Of a DNA stretch of 64,000 nucleotides, positions 2,344 to 64,000 are shown piece after piece. The DNA is from an uncultured Moraxella sp. (lineage in GTDB: Bacteria > Pseudomonadota > Gammaproteobacteria > Pseudomonadales > Moraxellaceae), in assembly GCF_945873075.1 (NCBI RefSeq), contig NZ_CAMCBS010000011.1, positions 1 through 64,000 of the forward strand. Reading direction: 5' to 3'. Position 1 is the stretch's first letter; each line of letters opens with the position of its first letter. The notes beneath the pieces are model-generated. The model was not told where the DNA came from. It worked only from the letters and a program-made list of their open reading frames with translations, and searched no databases. The position numbers and the translations under genes are program-made.

Positions 2344-4242
2344 ATGAGCCAAAGCACTTATACTTATCCAAAAAAATATGATGTCATCGTCGTCGGTGGT
2401 GGTCATGCGGGCACCGAAGCGGCGCTGGCAGCTGCTCGCATGGGTGCAGCGACCATGCTGATTACCCATAATATCGAAACGCTGGGTCAGATGAGCTGTA
2501 ACCCCGCCATTGGTGGTATTGGTAAGTCGCATCTGGTGCGCGAAGTGGATGCGCTCGGCGGTGTGATGGCGCTGGCGACGGATAAGGCAGGTATTCAGTT
2601 TCGCGTTCTAAATAACCGAAAAGGGGCGGCAGTGCGCGCGACCCGTGCCCAAGCCGATCGTATCTTATATAAGGCGGCAATCCGCCATACACTCGAAAAT
2701 CAGCCAAACCTAGACTTATTCCAACAGCCTGTCGATGACATCATCGTCGAAAATGGCAAAGCGGTGGCGGTCGTGACAGCAACGGGTGTACGCTTTGATA
2801 CCCATGCGGTGGTGCTGACTTCGGGGACATTTTTGGGCGGGGTCATTCATGTGGGGCTTGAGCACCAAAGTGGTGGCCGTGCTGGGGATATGCCCGCCAT
2901 CCGCTTAGCGGATCGATTGCGTGAACTTAAGCTGCCTGTGGGTCGCCTAAAGACAGGTACACCTGCTCGTATCGATGCTCGCACAGTGGATTTTAGCGTG
3001 ATGACGGTGCAGCCGGGTGATACGCCGCTGCCGGTGATGAGCTATATGGGTGATGTGTCCATGCACCCAACCCAAGTGAACTGCTATATCACCCACACCA
3101 ACGAACGCACGCATGACATCATCCGTGAAAATCTCGACCGCAGCCCGATGTTCAGCGGTAAAATCGAAGGCGTCGGCCCACGCTATTGCCCATCGATCGA
3201 AGATAAAATTCATCGCTTTGCCGATAAAGATAGCCATCAGATTTTTATTGAGCCTGAAGGCTTGACCACGCATGAGCTATACCCAAATGGCATCTCAACG
3301 AGCCTGCCTTTTGATGTGCAAGTCGCCTTTATTCACAGTATGAAAGGGCTTGAAAATGCACACATCACACGTCCCGGCTACGCCATTGAGTATGATTATT
3401 TTGACCCACAAAATCTAAAGCCAACCTTAGAAACCAAATCCATCGAACAGCTGTATTTTGCGGGGCAAATCAACGGCACGACAGGCTATGAAGAAGCGGC
3501 GGCGCAGGGGCTATTGGCAGGGATTAATGCTGCTTTATCCAGTCAAGATAAAGAGTTTTGGACGCCTAAGCGTAATGAAGCCTATCTTGGCGTACTGGTC
3601 GATGATTTGATTACGCATGGCACCAAAGAGCCGTATCGTATGTTCACCAGCCGTGCTGAGCATCGCTTGCTACTGCGTGAAGACAATGCCGACCAGCGTT
3701 TGACCGCCATCGGTCGCAAGCTTGGCTTGATTGATGATGAACGCTGGGCGAAATTTAATCAAAAAATGGATGCCATCGCATCAGAAAGCGCACGCCTACA
3801 AGAGATTTGGGCAACGCCAAACAACGCCATCGGTAAGGCATTTATGGCAAATACCGATGAAGTATTGACCAAAGAAAATACCTTGCTTGATTTGCTCAAG
3901 CGTCCCAATATCAGCTTTGGCGATATTGCCAAAGTCGCCGATAGCACGGTGAGTAGCGAAGTAGGCGAGCAGATTGAGATTGCCGTGAAATACGCAGGCT
4001 ATATCGACCGCCAAAATGACGAAATCGAGCAGATGAAACGCCTTGAAAATACGCCATTGCCGATGGATTTTGACTATACGACTGTGTCAGGCTTGTCCAA
4101 TGAAATCGTACAAAAGCTAAGCCAAGTGCGACCTGCGACACTTGCCCAAGCATCTCGTATCAGTGGCGTGACACCTGCAGCAGTGAGCCTGCTTGCGATG
4201 ACGATTAAAAAACTCAAAAAACAACAAGAAATCTTGTCATAA
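2344..4242 (+). CDS. mnmG: tRNA uridine-5-carboxymethylaminomethyl modification enzyme MnmG (GidA)
   Basis: With MnmE, this FAD enzyme installs the carboxymethylaminomethyl group at U34 of several tRNAs in the cytoplasm. The N-terminal dinucleotide fold [12 protein letters not shown] (about residues 16-27) binds FAD. The family blocks [42 protein letters not shown] and [18 protein letters not shown] are all present. The C-terminal helical region (after about residue 460, including [16 protein letters not shown]) is the MnmE and tRNA binding part. At 632 residues it is full length. It is followed by its own terminator. No partner gene is nearby, which is usual for this gene. Confidence 0.97.
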
Positions 4243-4246
4243 TCAT

Positions 4247-4275
4247 AAGGGCTGAAGTGCATTCAGCCCTTTTAT
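4247..4275 (+). terminator. Terminator after mnmG
   Basis: Perfect 10-bp stem AAGGGCTGAA/TTCAGCCCTT with loop GTGCA, followed by TTATTT, five bases past the mnmG stop. Confidence 0.85.
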
Positions 4276-4306
4276 TTGTCAATTCAATCAGCCAAAAGAG
4301 AACATT

Positions 4307-5263
4307 ATGCTTGATGCCATCATTTTTGCCATTTCAATCACCCTGCCCAATCTGATTTTGATGGGGCTTGGGTTTATGATGCAAAAACGCAATGTCATCA
4401 ATCCAGGCTTTATTGAAGTAGCGTCAAAAATGGTGTTTAGTTATTGCTTACCATGTTTGTTGTTTTTTAGTGTGATAAAAAGCGATGTGGATTATGCCAA
4501 GCAGGTTAATCTGTTGACCGCAGGGCTTGCGTGTACTTTTGCATTGTTTATCTTGGCTGAACTGTATGCCAAGTTTTTGGTCAAGGATGTGGCGGATAAA
4601 GGGGTGTTTGTGCAAGGAGTGTTTCGCTCCAATATGGCGATTATGTCGCTGGCGGTGGTGTCGAACGCCTATGGCAACGAAGGGCTTGGTATCGGTGCGG
4701 TGTATATGGGTGTGCTGACCATCGTGTATAATATTTTGGCGGTGATTACGCTATCACGCACCATGCAAAGTGGTGGCGGATTTGTCCATCAAGCCAAAGA
4801 TGTGCTACTGCATATTATCAAAAATCCCTTAATTATCGCTCTGGTTTCTGCATTTGGCTATAAGGCATTGGCATTGCCTGAGTTGCCAAAATTCGCTTAT
4901 AAAACCGGTGAGCTACTCGGTGCAGTTGCTTTGCCGTTGGCACTCATCTGCGCAGGTGCGACGCTCAATGTCAAATCCATGCTGTCATTATCAGGGGTGT
5001 CGATGCAGGCGAGTATCGGGCGAATTGTGGTTGCGCCACTCATGGCGGTGGCATTTGGATTGGCGTTCAATCTTGCACCGATTGAGATGGGTGTGCTGTT
5101 TTTGATGGTGGCAAGCCCTGCGGCAGCGGCAAGCTATGTGATGGCAAAGGCAATGGGCGGTAATGATGTGCTGGCTGCCAATATCTTAGGCTTTACCACC
5201 GTGGTGAGTATGCTTGGCATGGCGGTCGGTATGGCGATGCTACGGATTATGGGCTTGGCGTAG
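4307..5263 (+). CDS. AEC-family membrane transporter
   Basis: This is a predicted auxin-efflux-carrier-type permease (AEC family, relatives include malonate transporter MdcF). The 318 residues form about ten hydrophobic segments in two halves: segments from residue 3 to 160, a short hydrophilic linker (QSGGGFVHQAKD), then a second bundle. Family-like features are CLPCLLFFSVI in segment 2 and ASPAAAASYVMAKAMGG near the C-terminus. It sits in the inner membrane, but the substrate cannot be deduced. The start has AAGAGA 7 bases upstream. It lies downstream of the mnmG terminator and converges on sbcC. Confidence 0.85.
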   Translation: MLDAIIFAISITLPNLILMGLGFMMQKRNVINPGFIEVASKMVFSYCLPCLLFFSVIKSDVDYAKQVNLLTAGLACTFALFILAELYAKFLVKDVADKGVFVQGVFRSNMAIMSLAVVSNAYGNEGLGIGAVYMGVLTIVYNILAVITLSRTMQSGGGFVHQAKDVLLHIIKNPLIIALVSAFGYKALALPELPKFAYKTGELLGAVALPLALICAGATLNVKSMLSLSGVSMQASIGRIVVAPLMAVAFGLAFNLAPIEMGVLFLMVASPAAAASYVMAKAMGGNDVLAANILGFTTVVSMLGMAVGMAMLRIMGLA

Positions 5264-5320
5264 GGTATAGGGTGTGGTAAATTAAACTGAATGAACTGTA
5301 ATTATCGTTATAGCCATAAT

Positions 5321-54881: not shown

Positions 54882-57422
54882 ATGGATAAAGTACAGATGG
54901 CGCATATTCGACAAGATATGCAAGGGAATTGGTGCATTCATGCATTGCAAGATCATTTGGCAAAAGTGGCGCAAATGGCAGTCAGATTTGCAGATGGTCG
55001 GGGTGAGCTGTTTGCTCATTATGCAGGGCTTTGGCATGATTTGGGCAAGTTTCAGCAAGCTTTTCAAGACTATATCAAGCAAGTCACGGGATTTGACAAA
55101 GAAAATGCACATCTTGAAGATGTGGAAAGTAGCAAACCTACCAAACGCCCCCATTCTACCGCAGGGGCAAAGTACGCCACCACCCATCTTGACCCGTTAT
55201 TGGGGCATTTATTGGCGTATTTGATTGCAGGCCATCATGCAGGGCTTGCAGATTGGCATGACAAGGGTAGTCTAAAGGATAGATTGCAACAGGCGGATGA
55301 TGAGCTCTCTGCTGCTCTTGCTGGCGTAGCACAATCGCAAGGGGCAAGCGAGTTTTTGCAATTTGATGAAGGTGAACTGGTTGCTCAGCTTGAGCAGATT
55401 GTCGCTCATAGTGATGATGTATTGGGCGAACTGCATATTTGGATGCGTTTTTGGTTTTCGTGCCTAGTGGATGCTGATTTTTTGGATACCGAAAGCTTTA
55501 TGCATGGCTTTGATAATGCTGATGATGCCAAAAAAGCCGGTGTTCGACCAAGTTTTGAGACGCTAAATGAGCTGCATCATCGCTACGAGAATTTTATGGC
55601 AGCCCTTGCCAACAATGCTAAGCCATCGGCATTAAACCAAGAGCGTCAAGCCATCTTGGAGCAATGCTTTGATGCGGCTACTTTGGAGAAGTCGCTGTTT
55701 AGCCTAACTGTACCGACAGGGGGTGGCAAGACTTTGGCAAGTCTAGGTTTTGCACTCAAACACGCTCTGAAATTTAATAAAAAACGCATTATTTATGCCA
55801 TTCCTTTTACCAGTATCATTGAGCAAAATGCTAGCGTATTTCGTCAAGTCTTGGGTGATGAAGCGGTGCTTGAGCATCATAGCAATCTTGAAGTGGCACA
55901 AGGGCAAGAAACCGCCAAAAACCGATTGGCTAGCGAAAATTGGGATGCGTCTTTGATAGTTACGACCAATGTGCAGTTTTTTGAAAGTCTGTTTGCTACA
56001 CGCACCAGTCGCTGTCGCAAAATTCATAATATTGCTGATAGTGTGGTGATTTTGGATGAGTCTCAGCAAATTCCTAGAGAGTTTCAAAAGCCAATCACAG
56101 ATATGATGCGTGTTTTGGCAAGGGATTTTGGGGTGACATTTGTGCTGTGTACCGCCACCCAACCAGAGCTTGGCAAGGAAGTGGATGCCTTTGGGCGAAT
56201 GGATATGCAGGGACTAGATGGTGTGCATGAAATCATCCTTGATAAGACAGCCTTGGCAAAAAAGCTACAACGTGTACAAATTCATCTGCCTAAGATAGAC
56301 ACGCCCAAGCAGACTTGGCAACAGGTCGCTCATGATATTGCCAATCATGACTGCGTACTGGCGGTGGTCAATACTCGCCGACACGCTCGTCTGTTATTTG
56401 AAGCTTTGCCCGATGATGGTATTAAGCTACATTTATCCGCCAATATGTGTGCCACCCATCGCACCCAAGTGGTTGCCCTGATACGCTATTATTTGCAAGT
56501 TTATCATCAAGGCAAGCTAACCAGGCCTTTGTGGGTGGTAAGTACTCAGCTGATTGAAGCAGGTGTGGATGTGGATTTTCCTGTGGTGTATCGAGCGATG
56601 GCAGGCTTGGATAGTATCATTCAGACGGCAGGTCGGTGCAATCGAGAAGGTAAATTGCCTAAGCTTGGTGATGTGGTGGTATTTCGGGCAGAGCAGGGTG
56701 CTCCCACAGGCAGTCTAAAACAAGGACAGGATATTACCGAAGAGATGCTTGCGGCAGGACTATTAGCAGACCCCTTGTCGCCACAGACATTTAGTGAGTA
56801 TTTTCGCCGTTTTCGTGCCAAAGGCTTGGTGGATAAATACAAAATTACCGATGATTTGACAGCGCAAGTCTCAGAACAAAATCCTTTGGCAATCAAATTT
56901 CGCACCGCTTCAGAGAAGTTTCGTTTGATTGACAATCAAGGTGTGGCATTGGTTGTGCCGTTTGTGCCATTGGCTTGGCAGGATGGCACTCCAAAAATTG
57001 TAGAAGCCACGCAGTTGTCAGAATTTTTTGAGCGATATTTGGTAAATCAACCCATACAAACATGGCAATCAGTGCTTGATGGGTTGCGATACCAGCCCCA
57101 AGATGGTCAAAATGTGGATTGTGCTACTTATGCTCAAGATGGCTTTGAGTTTCAAAGTGGCGGTGTGCAGAGCTTGGCATTGCCTGAGCCGTTTGAGACT
57201 TGGTTTGGTTATTTACAAAGCGACCCACTTAAGCACAAATGGGTTTATCGCAAATTACAACGCTACACCATTACTGTGTATGAGCATGAATTGGCAAAAT
57301 TGCCCAAAGGGGCGGTTTTTGAGCGAGCGGGCTTATTAGTGCTAGATACGGGATATTATGATGATAAGTTTGGCTTGATGACAGATGATAGTGTCCTATC
57401 CCCAAGTGAGTGTGTCTTATGA
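54882..57422 (+). CDS. cas3: CRISPR-associated helicase/nuclease Cas3, type I-C
   Basis: Cas3 is recruited by Cascade and shreds target DNA. The N-terminal HD nuclease has GLWHDLGKF (His52-Asp53), RPHSTAGAKYA (His91) and AGHHAGL. The SF2 helicase has Walker A TVPTGGGKTLAS (about 275-286), TSIIEQNA, the box II LDESQ (about 391) and TATQPELG. Motif VI is IQTAGRCNREGK, and the C-terminal domain reaches 846 residues, a usual length. AAAGGA lies 9 bases before the ATG. It is separated from cas5c by a terminator and a new promoter. Motif VI codons contain a 10-base Neisseria uptake core (56620-56629). Confidence 0.95.
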   Translation: MDKVQMAHIRQDMQGNWCIHALQDHLAKVAQMAVRFADGRGELFAHYAGLWHDLGKFQQAFQDYIKQVTGFDKENAHLEDVESSKPTKRPHSTAGAKYATTHLDPLLGHLLAYLIAGHHAGLADWHDKGSLKDRLQQADDELSAALAGVAQSQGASEFLQFDEGELVAQLEQIVAHSDDVLGELHIWMRFWFSCLVDADFLDTESFMHGFDNADDAKKAGVRPSFETLNELHHRYENFMAALANNAKPSALNQERQAILEQCFDAATLEKSLFSLTVPTGGGKTLASLGFALKHALKFNKKRIIYAIPFTSIIEQNASVFRQVLGDEAVLEHHSNLEVAQGQETAKNRLASENWDASLIVTTNVQFFESLFATRTSRCRKIHNIADSVVILDESQQIPREFQKPITDMMRVLARDFGVTFVLCTATQPELGKEVDAFGRMDMQGLDGVHEIILDKTALAKKLQRVQIHLPKIDTPKQTWQQVAHDIANHDCVLAVVNTRRHARLLFEALPDDGIKLHLSANMCATHRTQVVALIRYYLQVYHQGKLTRPLWVVSTQLIEAGVDVDFPVVYRAMAGLDSIIQTAGRCNREGKLPKLGDVVVFRAEQGAPTGSLKQGQDITEEMLAAGLLADPLSPQTFSEYFRRFRAKGLVDKYKITDDLTAQVSEQNPLAIKFRTASEKFRLIDNQGVALVVPFVPLAWQDGTPKIVEATQLSEFFERYLVNQPIQTWQSVLDGLRYQPQDGQNVDCATYAQDGFEFQSGGVQSLALPEPFETWFGYLQSDPLKHKWVYRKLQRYTITVYEHELAKLPKGAVFERAGLLVLDTGYYDDKFGLMTDDSVLSPSECVL
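56620..56629 (-). repeat. Neisseria DUS core (10-mer) inside cas3
   Basis: The plus strand reads TTCAGACGGC, the complement of the DUS core GCCGTCTGAA, within codons for the helicase motif IQTAGR. It lacks the AT or AG of the 12-mer forms. Protein constraint may account for it. Confidence 0.5.
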
Positions 57423-57423
57423 T

Positions 57424-57448
57424 AAACGCCCCTAGATAGGGGCGTTTT
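57424..57448 (+). terminator. Terminator after cas3
   Basis: Perfect 10-bp stem AAACGCCCCT/AGGGGCGTTT, loop AGAT, then TT, directly behind the cas3 stop. Confidence 0.8.
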
Positions 57449-57477
57449 GCCTTAATAATTTAAGACATGGTATCATA

Positions 57478-57522
57478 GTTTCAACACACAACCACGCAGG
57501 GCGGTTGATTGGATAATTATCC
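57478..57522. repeat. Repeat-like element with palindrome between cas3 and cas5c
   Basis: GTTTCAAC (57478) begins a segment whose reverse complement ends TGTTGAAAC, like the ...ATTGAAAC end of type I-C repeats. It contains CAACC/GGTTG as a short stem. Its core ACCACGCAGGGCGGTT (57491-57506) matches 15 of 16 bases inside cas1 (63631-63646). It is followed by the perfect palindrome GGATAATTATCC (57511-57522). Nature unknown. Confidence 0.4.
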
Positions 57523-57556
57523 AGGCGGTATTATAACAAATTTGCCAGCAAAACTC

Positions 57557-57585
57557 TTGACTGGACAATCAAAATTATTTATTAT
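57557..57585 (+). promoter_or_regulatory. Sigma-70 promoter of the cas5c-cas8c-cas7c-cas4 operon
   Basis: TTGACT (57557-57562), 17-base spacer and TATTAT (57580-57585), each 5 of 6 to consensus. The predicted start, near 57592, leaves a short leader with AAGGAGA before the cas5c ATG. Confidence 0.75.
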
Positions 57586-57615
57586 GGTTTCATAGAATAG
57601 ACAAAAGGAGAATAC

Positions 57616-58260
57616 ATGAGTTTTATCCTAGAAATCAGTGGTGATTTTGCGTGTTTTACACGACCTGAGCTCAAGGTGGAGCGGGTGAGTTATCCTGTCA
57701 TTACCCCATCGGCAGCACGCAATATCTTGATGGCGATTCTGTGGAAGCCTGCCATTCGTTGGCGAGTGCTGAAGATTGAAATTCTAAAACCAATTCAATG
57801 GGTAAACATACGCCGCAACGAGTTAGGCACTAAGATGAGTGAGCGTAGTCAAGGGGTGTATATTGAAGACAATCGCCAACAGCGGGCATCTATGCTACTC
57901 AAAGATGTTGCTTATCGTATCCATGCCGATTTTGAACTGACTGATGAAGCAGGTGAAGCTGACAACCGCACCAAATTTGTGGAGATGTTTCGCCGCCGAG
58001 CCAGTCGGGGGCAGTATTTTCATCAGCCGTATTTGGGTTGTCGTGAATTTGCCTGTGATTTTAGGCTACTTGAGCGAGCTGATGACGGCTTGCCACGAGA
58101 AGCGATTACCCAAGATTTTGGCTTGATGCTTTATGATATGGATTATAGTAAGTCTGCACCACGAGACTCCAATCATGCCGAGCCGATGTTTTATCATTGT
58201 CGGGCGGTTGATGGGGTGATTGTCGTGCCAGCACGAGACAGCGGGGAGGTTTTGCGATGA
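57616..58260 (+). CDS. cas5c: Cas5c (Cas5d), crRNA-processing Cascade subunit
   Basis: In type I-C this RAMP protein replaces Cas6: it cuts the pre-crRNA in the repeat and holds the 5' handle. The N-terminal ferredoxin-like fold starts FILEISGDFACFTRPELKVERVSYPVITPSAARNILMAILWKP. The conserved block RGQYFHQPYLGCREF (about 136-150) carries the His of the proposed catalytic site. 214 residues is typical. AAGGAGA lies 6 bases before the ATG. Its stop overlaps the cas8c start by 4 bases. It is first in the operon. Confidence 0.95.
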   Translation: MSFILEISGDFACFTRPELKVERVSYPVITPSAARNILMAILWKPAIRWRVLKIEILKPIQWVNIRRNELGTKMSERSQGVYIEDNRQQRASMLLKDVAYRIHADFELTDEAGEADNRTKFVEMFRRRASRGQYFHQPYLGCREFACDFRLLERADDGLPREAITQDFGLMLYDMDYSKSAPRDSNHAEPMFYHCRAVDGVIVVPARDSGEVLR

Positions 58261-60044
58261 TTTTACACGCATTAACCCAATATTATCAGCGGATGGCAAG
58301 CTTAGGCGGGGATGTTGCCCCCGAAGGCTTTGAATACAAAGAATTGCCCTTTATCATCGTCATTGATGAGCAGGGTAAGTTTGTTCAACTTGAAGATACT
58401 CGAGAAATTCAGGGTAAAAAGAAGGTCGGACGCAAATTTTTAGTACCCAAGGGGCTTGGGCGTAGTGGTGCTAAGTCCTATGAAGTGAGCAATATCTTAT
58501 GGGATCATTATGGCTATGTGCTAGGCGTAGCAAAGGAAGTAGATGGCGTTGCCAAAAAAGACCCAGAGCAAATTGCCAGCGAAGTCGCCAAAAATCAAAC
58601 CTTGGCGGACAACCAACATCATAGCTTTATCAAAGCGGTAGATGAGCTACATCATGCCATCAGCGATGATGTGGGGGTGCTAGCGGTCAAGCGGTTTCTG
58701 GCAAATGCTGATGAAATCAACAAGGTTGTTCAGTCGGATAATTGGGCGGAGTGCTTTAAAATTAAAGGGTGCAATCTAAGTTTTCGCTTGGTAAGTGAAG
58801 TGCGTGATTTGGTTTGCCAATCAAAAAGTGTGCAAGCTTATTTATCGAGCCAAAAACAAGAAACTAGCACCGCAGGGCAGGCGGGTATTTGCTTGGTAAC
58901 AGGACAAAAAACCACCATCGCTCGCTTGCATAACGCCATCAAAGGAGTGAATGCTAAGCCTTCGCCATTTACTTCGGTGAATTTGTCAGCGTTCGAGTCC
59001 TACGGCAAACAGCAAGGATATATTTTTCCTGTGGGTGAGCAGGCGATGTTTGAATACACCACAGCGTTAAATATGTTATTAGATAGCGACAATCGCTTTC
59101 GTGTGGGGGATGTGACAGCGGTATGCTGGGCTCAAAAACCAACACCACTTGAGACCAAAGTATCTATTTTGATAAACGGTATCAAAGACAATCCCGATGC
59201 TCATATTGATGAAGTCAAGGGGCTTTATAATAGCTTGTACAAGGGCGTGTATAAAGAACCAAATGCTAAAGACAAATTTTATGTGCTTGGACTATCGCCC
59301 AACTCTGCTCGTATCGTAGTACGGTTTTGGCATGAAACGACAGTGGCGGCATTGTCCGAAAATATCGCCACATGGTATGACGATTTACAGATGGTGCGTG
59401 GCGATAACTCACCCTATCCGCCTTTTATGCCATTGCCACGCTTGTTGGGCAATTTGGTACTAGATGGCAAATTGGAAAATATTCCCCCTGATTTGATTGC
59501 AGGCGTGACCCAAAGCGTATTGAATAACCGCCCTTTGTCGGTAGGACTGCTCCAGTTGGCACTGCGTCGCAACAAAGCAGAACAAAAAATCACACATGGG
59601 CGAGCGTGCCTGATTAAAGCTTATTTAAATCGTGCTGTCCGTTGTGGCAGTTTATCACACATCAAGGAGCTTGATATGAGTTTGGATAAATCTCGTGAAG
59701 ATATTGGCTATCTATTGGGCAGGCTATTTGCTGTGCTTGAAAAAATCCAAGAAGAAGCCAATCCCCATCTAAACGCCACCATCGGCGAGCGGTATTTTGG
59801 TTCGGCAAGTAGTACACCGATTTCGGTATTTGGCACATTGATACGCTTATCAAAACATCATTTGGCAAAGATTAGCAATATCGGTAGACGAGTAAATTTA
59901 GAAAAATTGCAACAAGAAATCATTGCCAAGATTAACCAATTTCCAAGCCATTTGAATATCAACCAGCAAGGGCTGTTTTCTATTGGCTATTATCATCAAA
60001 AACAAGATTTTTATGTCAAATCTACTGACGCTGACAAGGAGTAA
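58257..60044 (+). CDS. cas8c: Cas8c (Csd1), large Cascade subunit
   Basis: Cas8c is the PAM-reading large subunit of type I-C Cascade. Recognisable Csd1 features are the opening [84 protein letters not shown] and [20 protein letters not shown]. 595 residues is standard. Its 3' part carries a second start for Cas11c. It is coupled to cas5c by overlap and followed by cas7c after 5 bases. Confidence 0.95.
59664..59669 (+). promoter_or_regulatory. Internal Shine-Dalgarno for Cas11c inside cas8c
   Basis: AAGGAG lies 6 bases before an in-frame ATG at 59676, an ideal ribosome site within a coding region. Confidence 0.75.
59676..60044 (+). CDS. cas11c: Cas11c small subunit from an internal start in cas8c
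   Basis: Type I-C systems are known to make the small Cascade subunit from a second start within cas8c. Here an ATG at codon 474 of cas8c follows AAGGAG at 6-base spacing and gives a 122-residue product. It starts [23 protein letters not shown], followed by [29 protein letters not shown], and is predicted mostly alpha-helical. Size and position agree with the described Cas11c. Several copies would line the Cascade belly. Expression is inferred, not shown. Confidence 0.75.
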
Positions 60045-60049
60045 TTCAG

Positions 60050-60901
60050 ATGACTATCGAAAAACGCTACGATTTTGTATTTTTGTTTGATGTGCAAGAC
60101 GGCAACCCAAATGGTGACCCTGATGCAGGCAACTTGCCACGCATTGACCCAGAAACAGGCATGGGGCTGGTGACCGATGTCTGCCTAAAACGCAAGGTGC
60201 GTAATTTTGTACAGATGACCCAAGATACCCAAACGCATGATATTTTTATCCGTGAAAAGGGGATTTTGAACCAACTGATTGACGAAGCGCACGAGCAAGA
60301 AAGTGTCAAAGCCAAAGAAAAAGGCGACAAAACCGAAGCGGCACGCCAATATATGTGCCAACGCTACTATGATATTCGCACCTTTGGGGCGGTGATGACC
60401 ACAGGTAAAAATGCAGGTCAAGTGCGCGGCCCTGTTCAGCTGACCTTTTCACGCTCTATTGACCCGATTATCACACTTGAGCATAGCATCACTCGTATGG
60501 CGGTAACCAACGAAAAAGACGCCAGCGAAACAGGCGATAATCGCACGATGGGGCGTAAGTTTACTGTACCTTATGGATTGTATCGTTGTCATGGCTTTGT
60601 GTCGGCTCATTTTGCTAAGCAAACAGGCTTTGGAGATGATGATTTGGCACTATTGTGGCAGGCACTTATCAATATGTTTGACCATGACCATTCGGCAGCT
60701 CGTGGACAGATGACGGCTCGTGGGTTGTATGTGTTTGAGCATAGCAATAGTTTGGGTGATGCTCCCGCTGATAGTCTATTTAGACGCATTACGGTTGCCA
60801 AAAAAGCAGGCGTGGATACCGTGCGTAGCTTTGATGACTATGCGGTAACGGTTGATGATAGCAATCTAGGGGCGACAACTTTACACCGCCACTTGGGCTA
60901 G
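60050..60901 (+). CDS. cas7c: Cas7c (Csd2), Cascade backbone subunit
   Basis: Cas7c polymerises along the crRNA spacer. The Csd2 opening [49 protein letters not shown] is diagnostic. The later blocks [30 protein letters not shown] and [23 protein letters not shown] are intact. 283 residues is normal. AAGGAG stands 8 bases before the ATG, a strong site suited to the most abundant subunit. Confidence 0.96.
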
Positions 60902-60925: not shown

Positions 60926-61579
60926 ATGGTTGATATGCCAATTAATCTAGCAACACCACAAAGCAGAGAGCAAAGACCAATTTTGCTCTCTGCTTTGCAG
61001 CATTATGCCTTCTGCCCACGCCAATGTGCCTTAATTCACAATGAACAAGCATGGGCAGAAAATTATCTGACTGCACAAGGTCAAGCCTTGCATAGGCGAG
61101 TGGATAGCGGTGAGCCCGAAACTCGCCAAGGTGTGCGTTTTGAGCGTAGTGTGCATGTATCTGCCGACAAATTGGGACTAAGTGGTGTTATTGATATGGT
61201 GGAATGTGAATTATCCACAGGGCGACTGTATCCTGTGGAATATAAGCGTGGCAAGCCAAAACCCGAGCCGTTTGATGAAATTCAGCTATGTGCCCAAGCG
61301 CTGTGCCTAGAAGAAATGACAGGGCAAACCATCAGCGAAGGGTCATTGTGGTATATGCAAACTCGTCATCGTGTACCAGTGGTGTTTACCGATACGCTAA
61401 GAGAGCAAACGCTGGCGGTTATCGCCCAAGTGCGTAAGCTTTTGGCCAGCGGACAAACCCCTCCGTCAATGTACGGCAAACGCTGCAAAGCCTGCTCGCT
61501 GGTGGAGATTTGCCAGCCGAAGTTGTTGGAGCGGGATAGGTCGATGGGGTATGTGAAGGGGTTGTTTGGTAATGATTAA
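60926..61579 (+). CDS. cas4: Cas4 nuclease of spacer acquisition
   Basis: Cas4 trims prespacers and helps select PAM-bearing ends with Cas1-Cas2. The first Fe-S Cys lies in ALQHYAFCPRQCALIHNEQAW. The RecB-type nuclease core has GLSGVIDMVE (catalytic Asp), PVEYKRGK (Glu and Lys) and DEIQLCAQALCLEE (Gln). The last three Fe-S cysteines are in RCKACSLVEICQP. 217 residues is standard. No Shine-Dalgarno is clear before the ATG at 60926, and a second ATG at 60935 is possible. In usual I-C order cas1 follows directly; here about 2 kb intervene. Confidence 0.93.
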   Translation: MVDMPINLATPQSREQRPILLSALQHYAFCPRQCALIHNEQAWAENYLTAQGQALHRRVDSGEPETRQGVRFERSVHVSADKLGLSGVIDMVECELSTGRLYPVEYKRGKPKPEPFDEIQLCAQALCLEEMTGQTISEGSLWYMQTRHRVPVVFTDTLREQTLAVIAQVRKLLASGQTPPSMYGKRCKACSLVEICQPKLLERDRSMGYVKGLFGND

Positions 61580-61610: not shown

Positions 61611-63236
61611 ATGAAGATTTCAAAAGTCAATATAAAAGATTTTAAAAGATTTAAAGATCTAACATTAAATTTAGGTAGTAATCCTTCAAAAATAATTGCA
61701 TTAGTTGGTGCTAATGGTTGTGGAAAGAGTAGTGTTCTAGATGCTTTTATAGCATGTAGTAGAAATTATGGTGGGAATATAGGTAATGGAATTACTCCAG
61801 AGATATTTTATAGAACAGATAATAAAAACGCATATCAATTAATATCAATTCAATATTTAGATGATGATGGAAATTCTATTGATAATAATGAATTGTATCA
61901 TAATCATAAGTTTTATAAAAATAATAGGGAAATTATTTTTTCTTTTAGAAGTCCATATCGCTACAATACCGATCTAAATATTAAAGAGATTAAAGCTACA
62001 GAACCCATTGAAAATAACTCGGATGGAGCAAGTTGTTCACTGCATTTAGATAGTAAAATAGAGAATAATTATAGAAGACTATTAGGGTTTTATAGTCAAG
62101 TAAGAGATAGTGAGGATATTAGACCTTCTGAAGCTAAGACTAAAGTTTTGGGTATGTTAAATGAGTCCATAAGAAATTGCTTAGATTTGGAAGTGTGTGA
62201 TTTGGGCAGTGTGGAGAATAACAACGGAACATTGCTGTTTAAAAAGTCAGATTCTGATGAGCCTTTTTCATTTAATAGCCTTTCTGCTGGAGAAAAAGAG
62301 GTTGTTGATATTTTGTTAGATTTGTTTTTAAGAAAAGAAAAATATAAAAATTCTATATTTTTATTAGATGAGCCAGAGTTGCATATTAATACATCAATTC
62401 AAAGAAAACTGATAGTTGAAATAGATAAACTGATAGATGATAGTGGGCAAATTTGGATCGCTACGCATAGTATTGGCTTTTTGCGAGCATTTCAGGAAGA
62501 GTTAGCAGGGAAATGTCAGGTTTTTCATTTTGAAGATGGAATGAAATTTGCATCAGAATCTATAGAATTAACCCCTGTAGTTAACAATAGGTTGATATGG
62601 CAATCTATTTTTAATACCGCTTTAGATGATTTAACTGGATTGATTGCCCCTAAAAGAATTATTTATTGTGAAGGAAGAGATGAACCTAGATCAAATGGCT
62701 CAGAAAGAGGGCTAGATGCTCAGGTTTTAAATAATATTTTTAATGCTGAATATCCAGATACTATATTTGTTTCTAGTGGAGGAAATACTGAGTTAGACCA
62801 AAGAAGTAGTATTGCATTGGCGATATTGGGTAAAGTATTTCCTGACATGGAAATTTGGGTTTTTAAAGATAGAGATATAGCTTCAGGAAAACCTGTATCA
62901 GAAGAAGATAGACAAGAATATTTATCTAATCAAGATAAAAGATTTAGGGTTATGAAAAGATGGGAGATTGAAAATTATCTATTTGATAGCGAAGTCCTGC
63001 AGAAGTATTGCAGTAATAACGGAAAGAACTTTGATAATGTTAAATATGAACAATACTTCACAAATGAAGACTTAATGGATTCAGATGTTAAGTCAAAATT
63101 TAGCTTAATAAAAAGTATTTGTTCAATTAGTACACCTATAAATGCTGAAAAGTTTAAAATTAATTTATCAGAATTGATTACTTCAGATATGTCTATTTAT
63201 AAGGAATTGAAGTCTTGTATATTTGAAAGGCAATAA
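61611..63236 (+). CDS. ABC-type ATPase with TOPRIM/DUF4435-like C-terminus, probable defence protein
   Basis: This is a single 541-residue protein. The N-terminal AAA15/OLD-type ATPase has LVGANGCGKSS (Walker A, about 33-41), SLSAGEKEVVD (signature, about 223), FLLDEPELHIN (Walker B, about 250) and WIATHS (H-loop, about 285). From about 345 a TOPRIM-like part follows: RIIYCEGRDE, VFKDRD (about 417-422) and RWEIENYLFDSEVL, the last as in DUF4435. This layout recalls OLD nucleases and the one-chain forms of PARIS (AriA-AriB). DNA is strikingly AT-rich, and Arg is mostly AGA, whereas cas genes use CGN. It sits between cas4 and cas1. Target and activity are unknown. Confidence 0.72.
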   Translation: MKISKVNIKDFKRFKDLTLNLGSNPSKIIALVGANGCGKSSVLDAFIACSRNYGGNIGNGITPEIFYRTDNKNAYQLISIQYLDDDGNSIDNNELYHNHKFYKNNREIIFSFRSPYRYNTDLNIKEIKATEPIENNSDGASCSLHLDSKIENNYRRLLGFYSQVRDSEDIRPSEAKTKVLGMLNESIRNCLDLEVCDLGSVENNNGTLLFKKSDSDEPFSFNSLSAGEKEVVDILLDLFLRKEKYKNSIFLLDEPELHINTSIQRKLIVEIDKLIDDSGQIWIATHSIGFLRAFQEELAGKCQVFHFEDGMKFASESIELTPVVNNRLIWQSIFNTALDDLTGLIAPKRIIYCEGRDEPRSNGSERGLDAQVLNNIFNAEYPDTIFVSSGGNTELDQRSSIALAILGKVFPDMEIWVFKDRDIASGKPVSEEDRQEYLSNQDKRFRVMKRWEIENYLFDSEVLQKYCSNNGKNFDNVKYEQYFTNEDLMDSDVKSKFSLIKSICSISTPINAEKFKINLSELITSDMSIYKELKSCIFERQ

Positions 63237-63315
63237 TTAAGTGAAGTAATTGTAGCAAGCGTAGGGTGTGTGCCTTTAGGCACGCACGCGTTGGTAGGGT
63301 ATCTGTTTTTGTTCT

Positions 63316-63327
63316 ATGCCGTCTGAA
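63316..63327 (+). repeat. Neisseria DUS, AT dialect
   Basis: Exact 12-mer ATGCCGTCTGAA. It forms one arm of the hairpin at 63318-63348. Confidence 0.9.
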
Positions 63328-63348
63328 AACCTGATTTTTTCAGACGGC
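63318..63348. terminator. DUS-pair hairpin, probable terminator
   Basis: 12-bp perfect stem GCCGTCTGAAAA/TTTTCAGACGGC with a 7-base loop. Inverted DUS pairs act as terminators in Neisseria. This one stands downstream of the ATPase gene. Confidence 0.75.
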
Positions 63349-63350
63349 CT
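63339..63350 (-). repeat. Neisseriaceae DUS, AG dialect
   Basis: Minus strand reads AGGCCGTCTGAA exactly. It is the second arm of the hairpin, so the pair mixes AT and AG dialects. Confidence 0.85.
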
Positions 63351-63401
63351 TAGCAGCCGCAATGGATAAAACGCGTGCATGGCTTGTGCTACACGCATGG
63401 A

Positions 63402-63470
63402 GTAGGTTGGGCATTGATGCCCGACAAAGTCCGCGGTCAAGCAAAAGTCGGGCATAAATGCCCGACCTAC
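63402..63470. repeat. 24-bp inverted repeat of Neisseria style
   Basis: Arms at 63402-63425 and 63447-63470 match 22 of 24 bases as complements. Each arm is itself near-palindromic (GTCGGGCAT..ATGCCCGAC). The family is seen in Neisseria intergenic regions; I do not see it elsewhere in the window. Confidence 0.75.
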
Positions 63471-63478
63471 TAAAACTG

Positions 63479-63518
63479 TTTTCAGACAGGCATTGCCTAT
63501 CTAATGCCTGTCTGAAAA
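63479..63518. repeat. Inverted pair of DUS of the TG/wadsworthii dialect
   Basis: Two perfectly complementary 16-base arms, TTTTCAGACAGGCATT and AATGCCTGTCTGAAAA, flank an 8-base loop. Each contains TGCCTGTCTGAA (63505-63516 plus, 63481-63492 minus), the variant I recall as the N. wadsworthii dialect. It can form a terminator-like hairpin. Confidence 0.8.
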
Positions 63519-63531
63519 CGATACGTTATTT

Positions 63532-63543
63532 TTCAGACGGCCT
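63532..63543 (-). repeat. Neisseriaceae DUS, AG dialect (single)
   Basis: Minus strand reads AGGCCGTCTGAA exactly, about 58 bases before cas1. Confidence 0.85.
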
Positions 63544-63567
63544 AAACAACAAGCCGTTCCAAAACAA

Positions 63568-63576
63568 AAGTGCGGT
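63568..63576 (+). repeat. Pasteurellaceae-type uptake signal core
   Basis: AAGTGCGGT within AAAAGTGCGGTCAAAA, followed by a T-rich run about 14 bases on, as in the extended Haemophilus influenzae USS. Lies 24 bases before cas1. Confidence 0.5.
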
Positions 63577-63600
63577 CAAAACCAAGGGAGTTTTTCAACC

Positions 63601-64000
63601 ATGCGTAAACTTCAAAACACCTTATATATCACCACGCAGGGCAGTTATCTGCATAAGGAGCGAGAAACTCTGGTGGTGGAGCATGAACGCAAAAAGATAG
63701 CACAGTTGCCGGTGCATTCCATCGGACATATCTTTTGTTTCGGCAATGTGTTGGTGTCGCCGTTTTTGATGGGATTTTGTGGTGAAAATAATGTCAATTT
63801 GGCATTTTTTACCGAAAATGGGCGATTTTTGGGGCGTTTGCAGGGGCGACAAAGTGGTAATGTGCTGCTACGGCGGGCGCAATATCGATTGTCCGAACAA
63901 AACCCCGTACCAATTGCACGGCATATCATCGCTGCCAAAATCCAAGCGTCCAAACGAGTGCTACAACGCAGACAAAGAAATCATGGCGAAATTGTTGAAA
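63601..64000 (+). CDS. cas1: CRISPR integrase Cas1, type I-C, N-terminal part only
   Basis: Cas1 with Cas2 integrates new spacers. The first 133 codons are in view and the gene runs off the right edge. They read MRKLQNTLYITTQGSYLHKERETLVVE, then IFCFGNVLVSPFLMGFCGENNVNLAFFTENGRFLGRL and GNVLLRRAQYRLSEQN. This is the N-terminal beta domain and the start of the helical domain of I-C Cas1; catalytic Glu/His/Asp lie beyond the edge. A GGGAG lies about 12 bases upstream. The preceding DNA is full of Neisseriaceae signals, so this end of the locus is likely imported. Confidence 0.93.
   Translation, partial: MRKLQNTLYITTQGSYLHKERETLVVEHERKKIAQLPVHSIGHIFCFGNVLVSPFLMGFCGENNVNLAFFTENGRFLGRLQGRQSGNVLLRRAQYRLSEQNPVPIARHIIAAKIQASKRVLQRRQRNHGEIVE

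Follow-up and report, generated by a model that had tools for sequence, protein, structure and literature searches.

Defence-gene hotspots, or defence islands, are places where many different defence genes occur at one conserved genomic spot. The minimal mobile elements of Neisseria, as a passage of PMC3082526 describes them, are exchangeable whole-gene cassettes that are bounded by two conserved genes and exchanged by homologous recombination. According to a passage of PMC5704561, the cas4 and cas1 of one CRISPR-Cas locus nearly always evolve as a unit. We analysed a stretch of Moraxella DNA of 64,000 nt (the window) in which 364 nt rich in uptake signals lie between a cargo gene and the cas1 of a CRISPR operon. 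The comparisons showed a mosaic structure, a cas4-cas1 slot with varying cargo over Pasteurellaceae, Neisseria and Moraxella, homology arms and alternative states of the slot. The 364-nt patch very probably forms the right end of a swapped-in cassette some 2.3 kb long, which we read as a minimal mobile element within a CRISPR operon that would have been exchanged by transformation and homologous recombination. By the definition given in that passage of PMC3082526, this is a minimal mobile element in kind. It differs from the Neisseria elements in that its bounding genes are the cas4 and cas1 of a CRISPR operon, in its apparent exchange across three families, in a recognisable cargo that is to a large extent of defence type, and in a leader that can carry the uptake signals of two families. 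A search of the open-licence PMC literature found, among the matches listed, no gene exchange between cas4 and cas1, which is weak evidence of novelty. Compared with defence hotspots, the conserved spot is here a single junction, flanked by short homology arms, within a defence operon of a different kind.

The window covers bases 1-64000 of contig C11 (65,453 bases) of a draft genome (G000; 2,087,468 bases, 60 contigs, completeness 93.59). Its type I-C operon, on the plus strand from 54882, runs cas3, cas5d, csd1, csd2, cas4, an AAA ATPase gene, the patch, cas1, cas2 and a CRISPR array. We located cas3 at 54882..57422 (Pfam Cas3_HD, DEAD and Cas3-like_C_2), the type I-C cas5d at 57616..58260 (Cas_Cas5d, 4.8e-35), csd1/cas8c at 58257..60044 (Cas_Csd1, 2.4e-161), csd2/cas7 at 60050..60901 (Cas_Cas7) and cas4 at 60926..61579 (Cas_Cas4), the body of which is Moraxella-like and the 3' end Neisseria-like by the informative sites given below. 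The cargo gene (61611..63236) encodes 541 aa, an AAA ATPase with a further C-terminal part (Pfam AAA_21/AAA_15; PADLOC). The leader patch (63237..63600) separates it from cas1, which occupies 63601..64000 and continues in the contig to 64614; cas2 and an array with the repeats GTCGCTCCCCATGCGGGAGCGTGTGTTGAAAC follow. The type I-C set Csd1, Csd2, Cas5d, Cas3, Cas4, Cas1 and Cas2 is present, with Pfam matches for all except cas2, which was named from its position and its match in other loci; cas1 and cas2 are complete in locus L103.

In PADLOC, the cargo protein matched AriAB (PARIS) best (1.4e-35) and PtuA next (2.2e-28). This best match is its likeness to PARIS, a system of an AriA ATPase plus AriB, which may here be fused; it differs in that the match covers only part of the AriAB model, with the best stretch at residues 198-465. 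The best relatives of the protein were 54% and 50% identical and came from one other genus of the same family. A phage search with the protein gave no match, a plasmid search gave one record only (Zymomonas, 31%), and a PDB sequence search gave nine weak matches, nearly all at the start of the ATPase. No donor genome with this cargo was found, Neisseria and Pasteurellaceae being covered only through the fetched loci.

The sequence-only reading had pointed to five exact DUS 12-mers within 230 bp of the patch, and all five were found to be exact and in place. They are one AT-DUS (ATGCCGTCTGAA, plus strand, 63316-63327), two AG-DUS (AGGCCGTCTGAA, minus strand, 63339-63350 and 63532-63543) and two wadDUS (TGCCTGTCTGAA, minus strand at 63481-63492 and plus strand at 63505-63516); the letters of AT-DUS and AG-DUS are those that we take these dialects to have. 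The wadDUS is an AT-DUS with an inserted T and was described for N. wadsworthii 9715 in a passage of PMC3630211. The AT-DUS pairs with the first AG-DUS, and the two wadDUS pair with each other, in strong predicted hairpins (-18 and -28.6 kcal/mol). The inverted repeat that had been seen among these signals is real, with arms of 25 nt at 63401-63425 and 63447-63471 that are 92% complementary. The piece containing it (63401..63471; patch positions 166-234) is a dispersed Neisseria repeat, as is 63253..63293 (patch positions 17-57), which has several copies in the Neisseria genomes searched. A further signal had been overlooked. The 9-mer AAGTGCGGT, which we take to be the core of the Pasteurellaceae uptake signal (USS), lies at 63568-63576, 24 nt upstream of the cas1 ATG, within a Pasteurellaceae-type 14-mer (AAGTGCGGTCAAAA, plus strand, 63568-63581) that has its sole G000 copy here. 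It is followed by AAGGGAG (63584..63590, plus strand), which we take to be the likely ribosome-binding site of cas1.

The 9-mer CCGTCTGAA occurred four times in the window against 0.21 expected, a number reached in 0/100 shuffles; the fourth copy, at 56620 within cas3, is without an AT or AG prefix. The 10-mer GCCGTCTGAA had 12 copies in the whole draft genome, where the only AT-DUS and AG-DUS were the three in the patch. When the AT, AG and wad dialects were counted over all 2.09 Mb of G000, five exact copies were obtained, with two each of AGGCCGTCTGAA and TGCCTGTCTGAA, and 5/5 were within the patch. This upheld the claim that DUS 12-mers are absent from the remaining window and refuted a genome-average density of DUS. 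The host thus has no high genome-wide copy number, and since its only five DUS are all in the patch, they do not belong to a DUS system of its own. The signals resemble the Neisseriaceae dialects in being exact AT-DUS, AG-DUS and wadDUS; they differ in forming one patch in a Moraxella genome that is otherwise without an exact 12-mer of these three.

That the patch DNA is foreign and Neisseria-like was confirmed by a leader match and by repeats. Over its last 130 nt it shared 94% identity with the cas1 leader of Neisseria sp. S28M_Sa_33 (locus L040, genome G096), and the cas1 and cas2 genes behind these two leaders were 74% and 71% identical in DNA. Patch positions 200-351 were 89% identical to N. 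bergeri and positions 17-251 were 82% identical to Rodentibacter genomosp. 1, a genus in which homologous leaders occur. The pieces 17-57, 80-116, 166-234 and 242-283 of the patch were repeated in several Neisseria genomes: matches numbered at least 52, 44, 37, 26 and 16 in G096, G097, G102, G104 and G101, the large counts being lower bounds, as 40 candidates were scored in each of these genomes, then 2-4 in four further genomes and none in three, which makes 9/12 genomes with a match. The proposal of a Neisseria donor held in part: the leader is Neisseria-like, but the account is incomplete, as the leader has a Pasteurellaceae-type signal and homologues in Rodentibacter. Successive transfers, which had been proposed to explain the mixed dialects, are not needed. 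Genomes G096, G097 and G102, with 1,920, 2,100 and 2,119 copies of TGCCTGTCTGAA, also hold 235, 272 and 263 copies of AGGCCGTCTGAA, so that a single donor of the wadDUS type suffices. The DUS in the patch may be a mere watermark of the donor. A plasmid search with the patch gave no match.

We also considered whether the patch is an old Moraxella feature, and this was rejected: among 96 genomes searched (G000, 21 others of the genus and 74 of the family and order), it was found in G000 alone. The same search detected a 29-nt piece of the patch, with the USS, in Moraxella G016. In 15 genomes, the 14-mer AAGTGCGGTCAAAA had one copy each in G000, Moraxella G016 and Neisseria G096, G097 and G101, always in the cas1 leader, 126 and 129 copies in two Rodentibacter genomes, and only 3 in Glaesserella G107; G006, G105 and G106 had one copy each elsewhere, and G098, G102, G103 and G104 had none. 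The cas1 leader of Moraxella G006 (locus L136) was seen to contain an AG-DUS and then a degenerate USS, with a different, OLD-type cargo; the G006 genome totals are 5 AG-DUS and 2 wadDUS.

To compare leaders, the 130 nt upstream of cas1 were set against the rest of the same loci. Exact AAGTGCGGT was found in the leaders of 5/15 Neisseria, 12/35 Pasteurellaceae, 2/5 Moraxella, 0/7 other near and 0/12 far loci, with 0.007, 0.038, 0.000, 0.011 and 0.000 per 130 nt, in the same order, in the rest. Any of seven DUS cores, whose letters are for the most part our assumption, occurred in the leaders of 5 Neisseria, 6 Pasteurellaceae, 2 Moraxella, 0 other near and 0 far loci, the rates elsewhere being 0.174, 0.044, 0.018, 0.049 and 0.000 per 130 nt. 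USS are clearly enriched in Neisseria and Moraxella leaders, and DUS are clearly enriched in Pasteurellaceae and Moraxella leaders and hardly in those of Neisseria, where 5/15 is little more than the approximately 2.6/15 expected. As the leaders are related, these occurrences are not independent events.

The uptake-like motifs could instead be expression signals, namely terminator hairpins and a conserved cas1 leader, with an incidental match to DUS and USS. The strong hairpins of the DUS pairs agree with this, as does a relaxed form of the motif AAAAGTGCGGTCAAAA that lies 26-35 nt upstream of cas1 in 28/74 leaders (background 0.004 per 10 positions) and is usually followed by an AAGGAG-like stretch, present in most of the 28 leaders printed; 12 of the 28 have a degenerate USS core. 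A promoter and terminator scan of the patch called one terminator-like site, on the minus strand, with no excess over shuffles. However, the exact DUS 12-mers occur nowhere else in G000, the USS 14-mer has a single copy in each of five non-Pasteurellaceae genomes, always in the leader, and a USS-like expression element would leave the ancestry switches described below unexplained. We consider this explanation rather unlikely and retain that of a swapped-in cassette.

Loci were collected by searching with peptides taken from residues 1-133 of Cas1, queries that favour loci sharing that arm. The 70 loci obtained, the window locus and three other Moraxella loci made 74, of which 62 were near (Pasteurellaceae, Neisseria, Moraxella and a few others) and 12 distant; the cas4-cas1 gap was measurable in 54 near loci and not in eight. 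This gap exceeded 200 nt in 43/54 near loci and in 0/12 distant ones, whose median gap was -4. The window shares with type I-C CRISPR-Cas the order cas3-cas5-csd1-csd2-cas4-cas1-cas2 and an array of 32-nt repeats, and differs from it in its cas4-cas1 distance of 2.0 kb. At the other four cas junctions of the near loci, gaps above 200 nt were found in 1/30, 2/53, 5/54 and 4/56, and the cas7-cas4 junction exceeded 200 nt in 4/12 distant loci. Three interference variants, of Csd1 type in each member searched, share the slot (30, 19 and 6 near loci, with 7 lacking an assignment). One locus, L057, is labelled Pseudomonas stutzeri NCTC11607 and is of the Pasteurellaceae/Neisseria kind, with a Cas1 start at 92%.

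The cargo was surveyed separately in 43 filled loci defined by that survey's own gap estimates, which include L100 and L102 and exclude L136 and L137. An ORF was present in 41/43, and the 64 ORFs of at least 60 aa fell into 49 clusters; the genes in the slot mostly differ from one filled locus to another. As in the minimal mobile elements of Neisseria, conserved flanking genes enclose differing cassettes, here between species and not strains (43/54 filled, 49 clusters). Pfam was searched with 40 of the 41 representatives chosen, and PADLOC with 19 of these 40 and with the window cargo; outside the search stood an 88-aa ORF in L048 and nine more single ORFs of 60-119 aa. In a tally made by hand, where cluster members take the name of the member searched, 14 of the 43 loci filled by the measured gap had a recognised defence gene (OLD, CBASS, BsuBI/PstI restriction-modification, AbiP2, RT-associated SLATT, GmrSD or AriAB-like), 8 had a nuclease-like, toxin-like or related domain, and 21 had no defence domain; L100 and L102, outside these 43, are two further clear defence cases. 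Among the 21, some gave Pfam matches of another kind, weak or unrelated to defence, and in four (L049, L054, L070 and L071) no ORF exceeded 100 aa. NCBIfam was applied to ten cargo proteins and its cut-off was reached by that of L036 only. One cluster, named AbiP2 from the member searched, is common to Cricetibacter, Neisseria weixii, Rodentibacter and N. viridiae. In L058, the slot was noticed to hold two cargo genes with a second cas4 end (3749-3834) between them, as though one cassette had been stacked on another.

A pair of Moraxella genomes presents the filled and the empty state. The stretches fetched from G016 and G005 share 95.8% identity over 9.8 kb, as far as the last ~18 codons of cas4, and they match again from codon 3 of cas1. 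In G005, the empty state, cas4 and cas1 nearly touch. G016 is filled: a different cas4 end is followed by a CBASS pair (CD-NTase and SLATT_4), a leader with USS and a cas1 that starts ATGCGC; its leader and cas1 start (62 nt) are 95% identical to N. weixii. Traces of exchange were also seen at synonymous positions. For the window cas4, synonymous identity to 39 loci reached 83% and 78% in the two final bins (codons 181-217, ~37 codons), whereas the other nine had 35-53%. For cas1, mean synonymous identity to nine Neisseria was compared between codons 1-80 and codons 141-337. It was higher at the start in 27/27 Pasteurellaceae loci (0.66 vs 0.52), in 4/4 other loci (0.73 vs 0.61) and in 4/4 Moraxella (0.60 vs 0.45), in 5/6 more distant loci with an empty slot (0.39 vs 0.37, p 0.22), and, weakly, in 7/11 far loci (0.37 vs 0.33, Wilcoxon p 0.04). 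L057 was left out of this comparison for its length, and L061, L067 and L083 were left out of another for the length of Cas1. Near loci with an empty slot show the excess as well (L138, 0.59 vs 0.47; L060 and L074 among the 27), so it marks exchange of the region and not filling as such.

These states bear on a second alternative, in which the slot was filled by site-specific or transposon insertion and the patch is debris of a mobile element. An IS1595-type transposase does lie beside the cargo of L100, and the repeats of the patch are dispersed in Neisseria. But Pfam detected no integrase or transposase in the window cargo or in the other 39 cargo proteins, the ten small ORFs standing outside that search, and between G016 and G005 the import replaces coding sequence on either side, as expected of homologous recombination. 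Insertion is in our view very unlikely. An integrase- or transposon-borne island is not what was found either: unlike defence hotspots, the 40 survey proteins include one transposase and no integrase. The absence of mobility genes of its own from the window cargo is, with the L100 transposase as the exception in the survey, a likeness to the Neisseria elements, and so is the recombination in the flanking genes to which the cas4 and cas1 mosaics of the window and of G016/G005 point.

The extent of the swapped-in cassette was estimated from informative sites, defined as those where Moraxella G006 and Neisseria L040 differ, at which the window was scored against both. Within cas4, 54 sites before 61,320 were of G006 type and 7 of L040 type; the counts were 17 and 20 for 61,320-61,439, and 5 and 21 from 61,440 to the end of the gene. 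In the leader and cas1 up to 63,659, 0 sites were of G006 type and 4 of L040 type, followed by 15 and 5 at 63,660-63,839 and 222 and 12 from 63,840. When N. dentiae L043 replaced L040, the left switch was at about the same place; when Glaesserella L033 did, it was not clear. The import therefore spans about 61.4 to 63.66-63.8 kb, with a left breakpoint somewhere in 61.32-61.44 kb and a left arm, the imported 3' end of cas4, at 61405..61579 (plus strand; informative sites and synonymous identity); its right edge depends on few sites, the 4 of Neisseria type before 63,660. It contains the last ~170 nt of cas4, the PARIS-like ATPase gene as a stand-alone gene of defence type, the patch as a leader that carries uptake signals and a likely ribosome-binding site, and, as the right arm, the first ~20-60 codons of cas1. 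Since the bodies of cas4 and cas1 are Moraxella-like and the interval is not, the cassette replaced what lay between them. With breakpoints inside both genes, the two bodies can stay together, in line with their evolution as a unit, while the ends are exchanged.

The sequence-only reading had concluded that the adaptation end, cas1-cas2, entered Moraxella from Neisseriaceae by DUS-mediated transfer. Neisseria-type DUS do adjoin cas1, and residues 1-130 of Cas1 are up to 95% identical to Neisseria. This view is contradicted for the bulk of cas1, which follows G006 from about 63.8 kb at the sites counted above; only its first ~20-60 codons came with the patch. The DNA of cas1 and cas2 is 95% and 98% identical to G006, against the 74% and 71% found for the Neisseria with the closest leader. 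Both the larger part of cas4 and the remainder of cas1 match a second Moraxella genome, so the adaptation module did not arrive together with the DUS, and we hold its entry from Neisseriaceae to be highly improbable. An assembly artefact or contamination with Neisseria or Pasteurellaceae DNA, for which one could cite the 60-contig draft, has next to no credibility, given that the patch sits in the interior of a 65-kb contig, between Moraxella genes to one side and a cas1-cas2 resembling that of G006 to the other, that contamination is listed as 0.02 (without a unit) and that parallel states exist in G016 and G006.

Other parts of the operon have histories of their own. Left of the CRISPR locus, the window and G006 have a common collinear flank that is 72-87% identical. 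Because cas1 and cas2 are nearer to G006 than these flanks are, they too may have moved within Moraxella. The cas3, cas5 and cas7 of the window are only 29-33% identical to those of G006, and among the loci compared their nearest relatives are in Pasteurellaceae. The same holds for the csd1/cas8c variant, which has 75% amino acid identity over the covered part to Glaesserella australis L033, the csd2/cas7 of which is 90% identical. Three Csd1-type interference variants (window 54882-60901, L136, L137 and L060) were observed before related cas4-cas1-cas2 genes; compared with the window, their Cas5 is about 25-50% and their Cas7 about 33-57% identical. Given such variants before related cas4-cas1-cas2, the interference genes seem to have been exchanged too.

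Moraxella is naturally competent. In the mechanism that we propose for the minimal mobile element, free DNA would be taken up by naturally competent bacteria in a common habitat, and crossovers in the conserved end of cas4 and start of cas1 would replace the DNA between them. The leader would restore the ribosome-binding site of cas1 after every swap. Its uptake signals would aid Neisseria and Pasteurellaceae as recipients and would be a passive mark in Moraxella. The resulting operon would combine CRISPR immunity with one interchangeable innate-type defence gene, if the cargo is indeed protective. It offers a route, concrete at the level of sequence, along which defence genes could pass from one bacterial family to another with no phage, plasmid or integrase involved. 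It also shows that CRISPR operons in these bacteria act as a landing site for further defence genes. This slot is easily located from a cas4 end and a cas1 start and could be mined for new defence genes, 21/43 filled loci being without a recognised defence domain.

Units of the same make were also found away from intact CRISPR loci. In L101 (Moraxella sp. VT-16-12, 3015-5266), the end of a cas4 and the start of a cas1, both decayed, enclose a GmrSD-type gene and a leader; ten cas queries gave no further match in 10 kb, and ordinary genes lie on both sides. In Neisseria, a cas1-start::cas4-end fusion was found in four copies, all with the same junction, at which the first ~119 codons of cas1 are joined to cas4 from about codon 66. 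The copies lie next to cargo genes or between them, in N. bergeri (L078 943-1754 and 3599-4059), N. viridiae (L082 5001-5806) and N. gonorrhoeae DSM 9188 (L085 4684-5675). The two fusions of N. bergeri L078 have DarT and Macro-domain genes between them, and the slot of N. viridiae L082 reads AbiP2-cluster gene, short cas1 start, second gene, fusion. On the basis of the free-standing L101 unit and these fusions, which are descriptive evidence, we tentatively suggest, with more doubt than belief, that the unit cas4 end, defence gene, leader and cas1 start is itself a mobile defence cassette that is spread across families by transformation under uptake signals in two "languages", can stack in tandem and may outlive CRISPR. 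Separately, a cas4 end was observed in N. bergeri (L206, 6169-6720) and N. viridiae (L203, 6309-6857) that adjoins minus-strand genes of 658 and 590 aa in both; in L203, Pfam identified these neighbours as a sigma-70 factor and a DNA primase.
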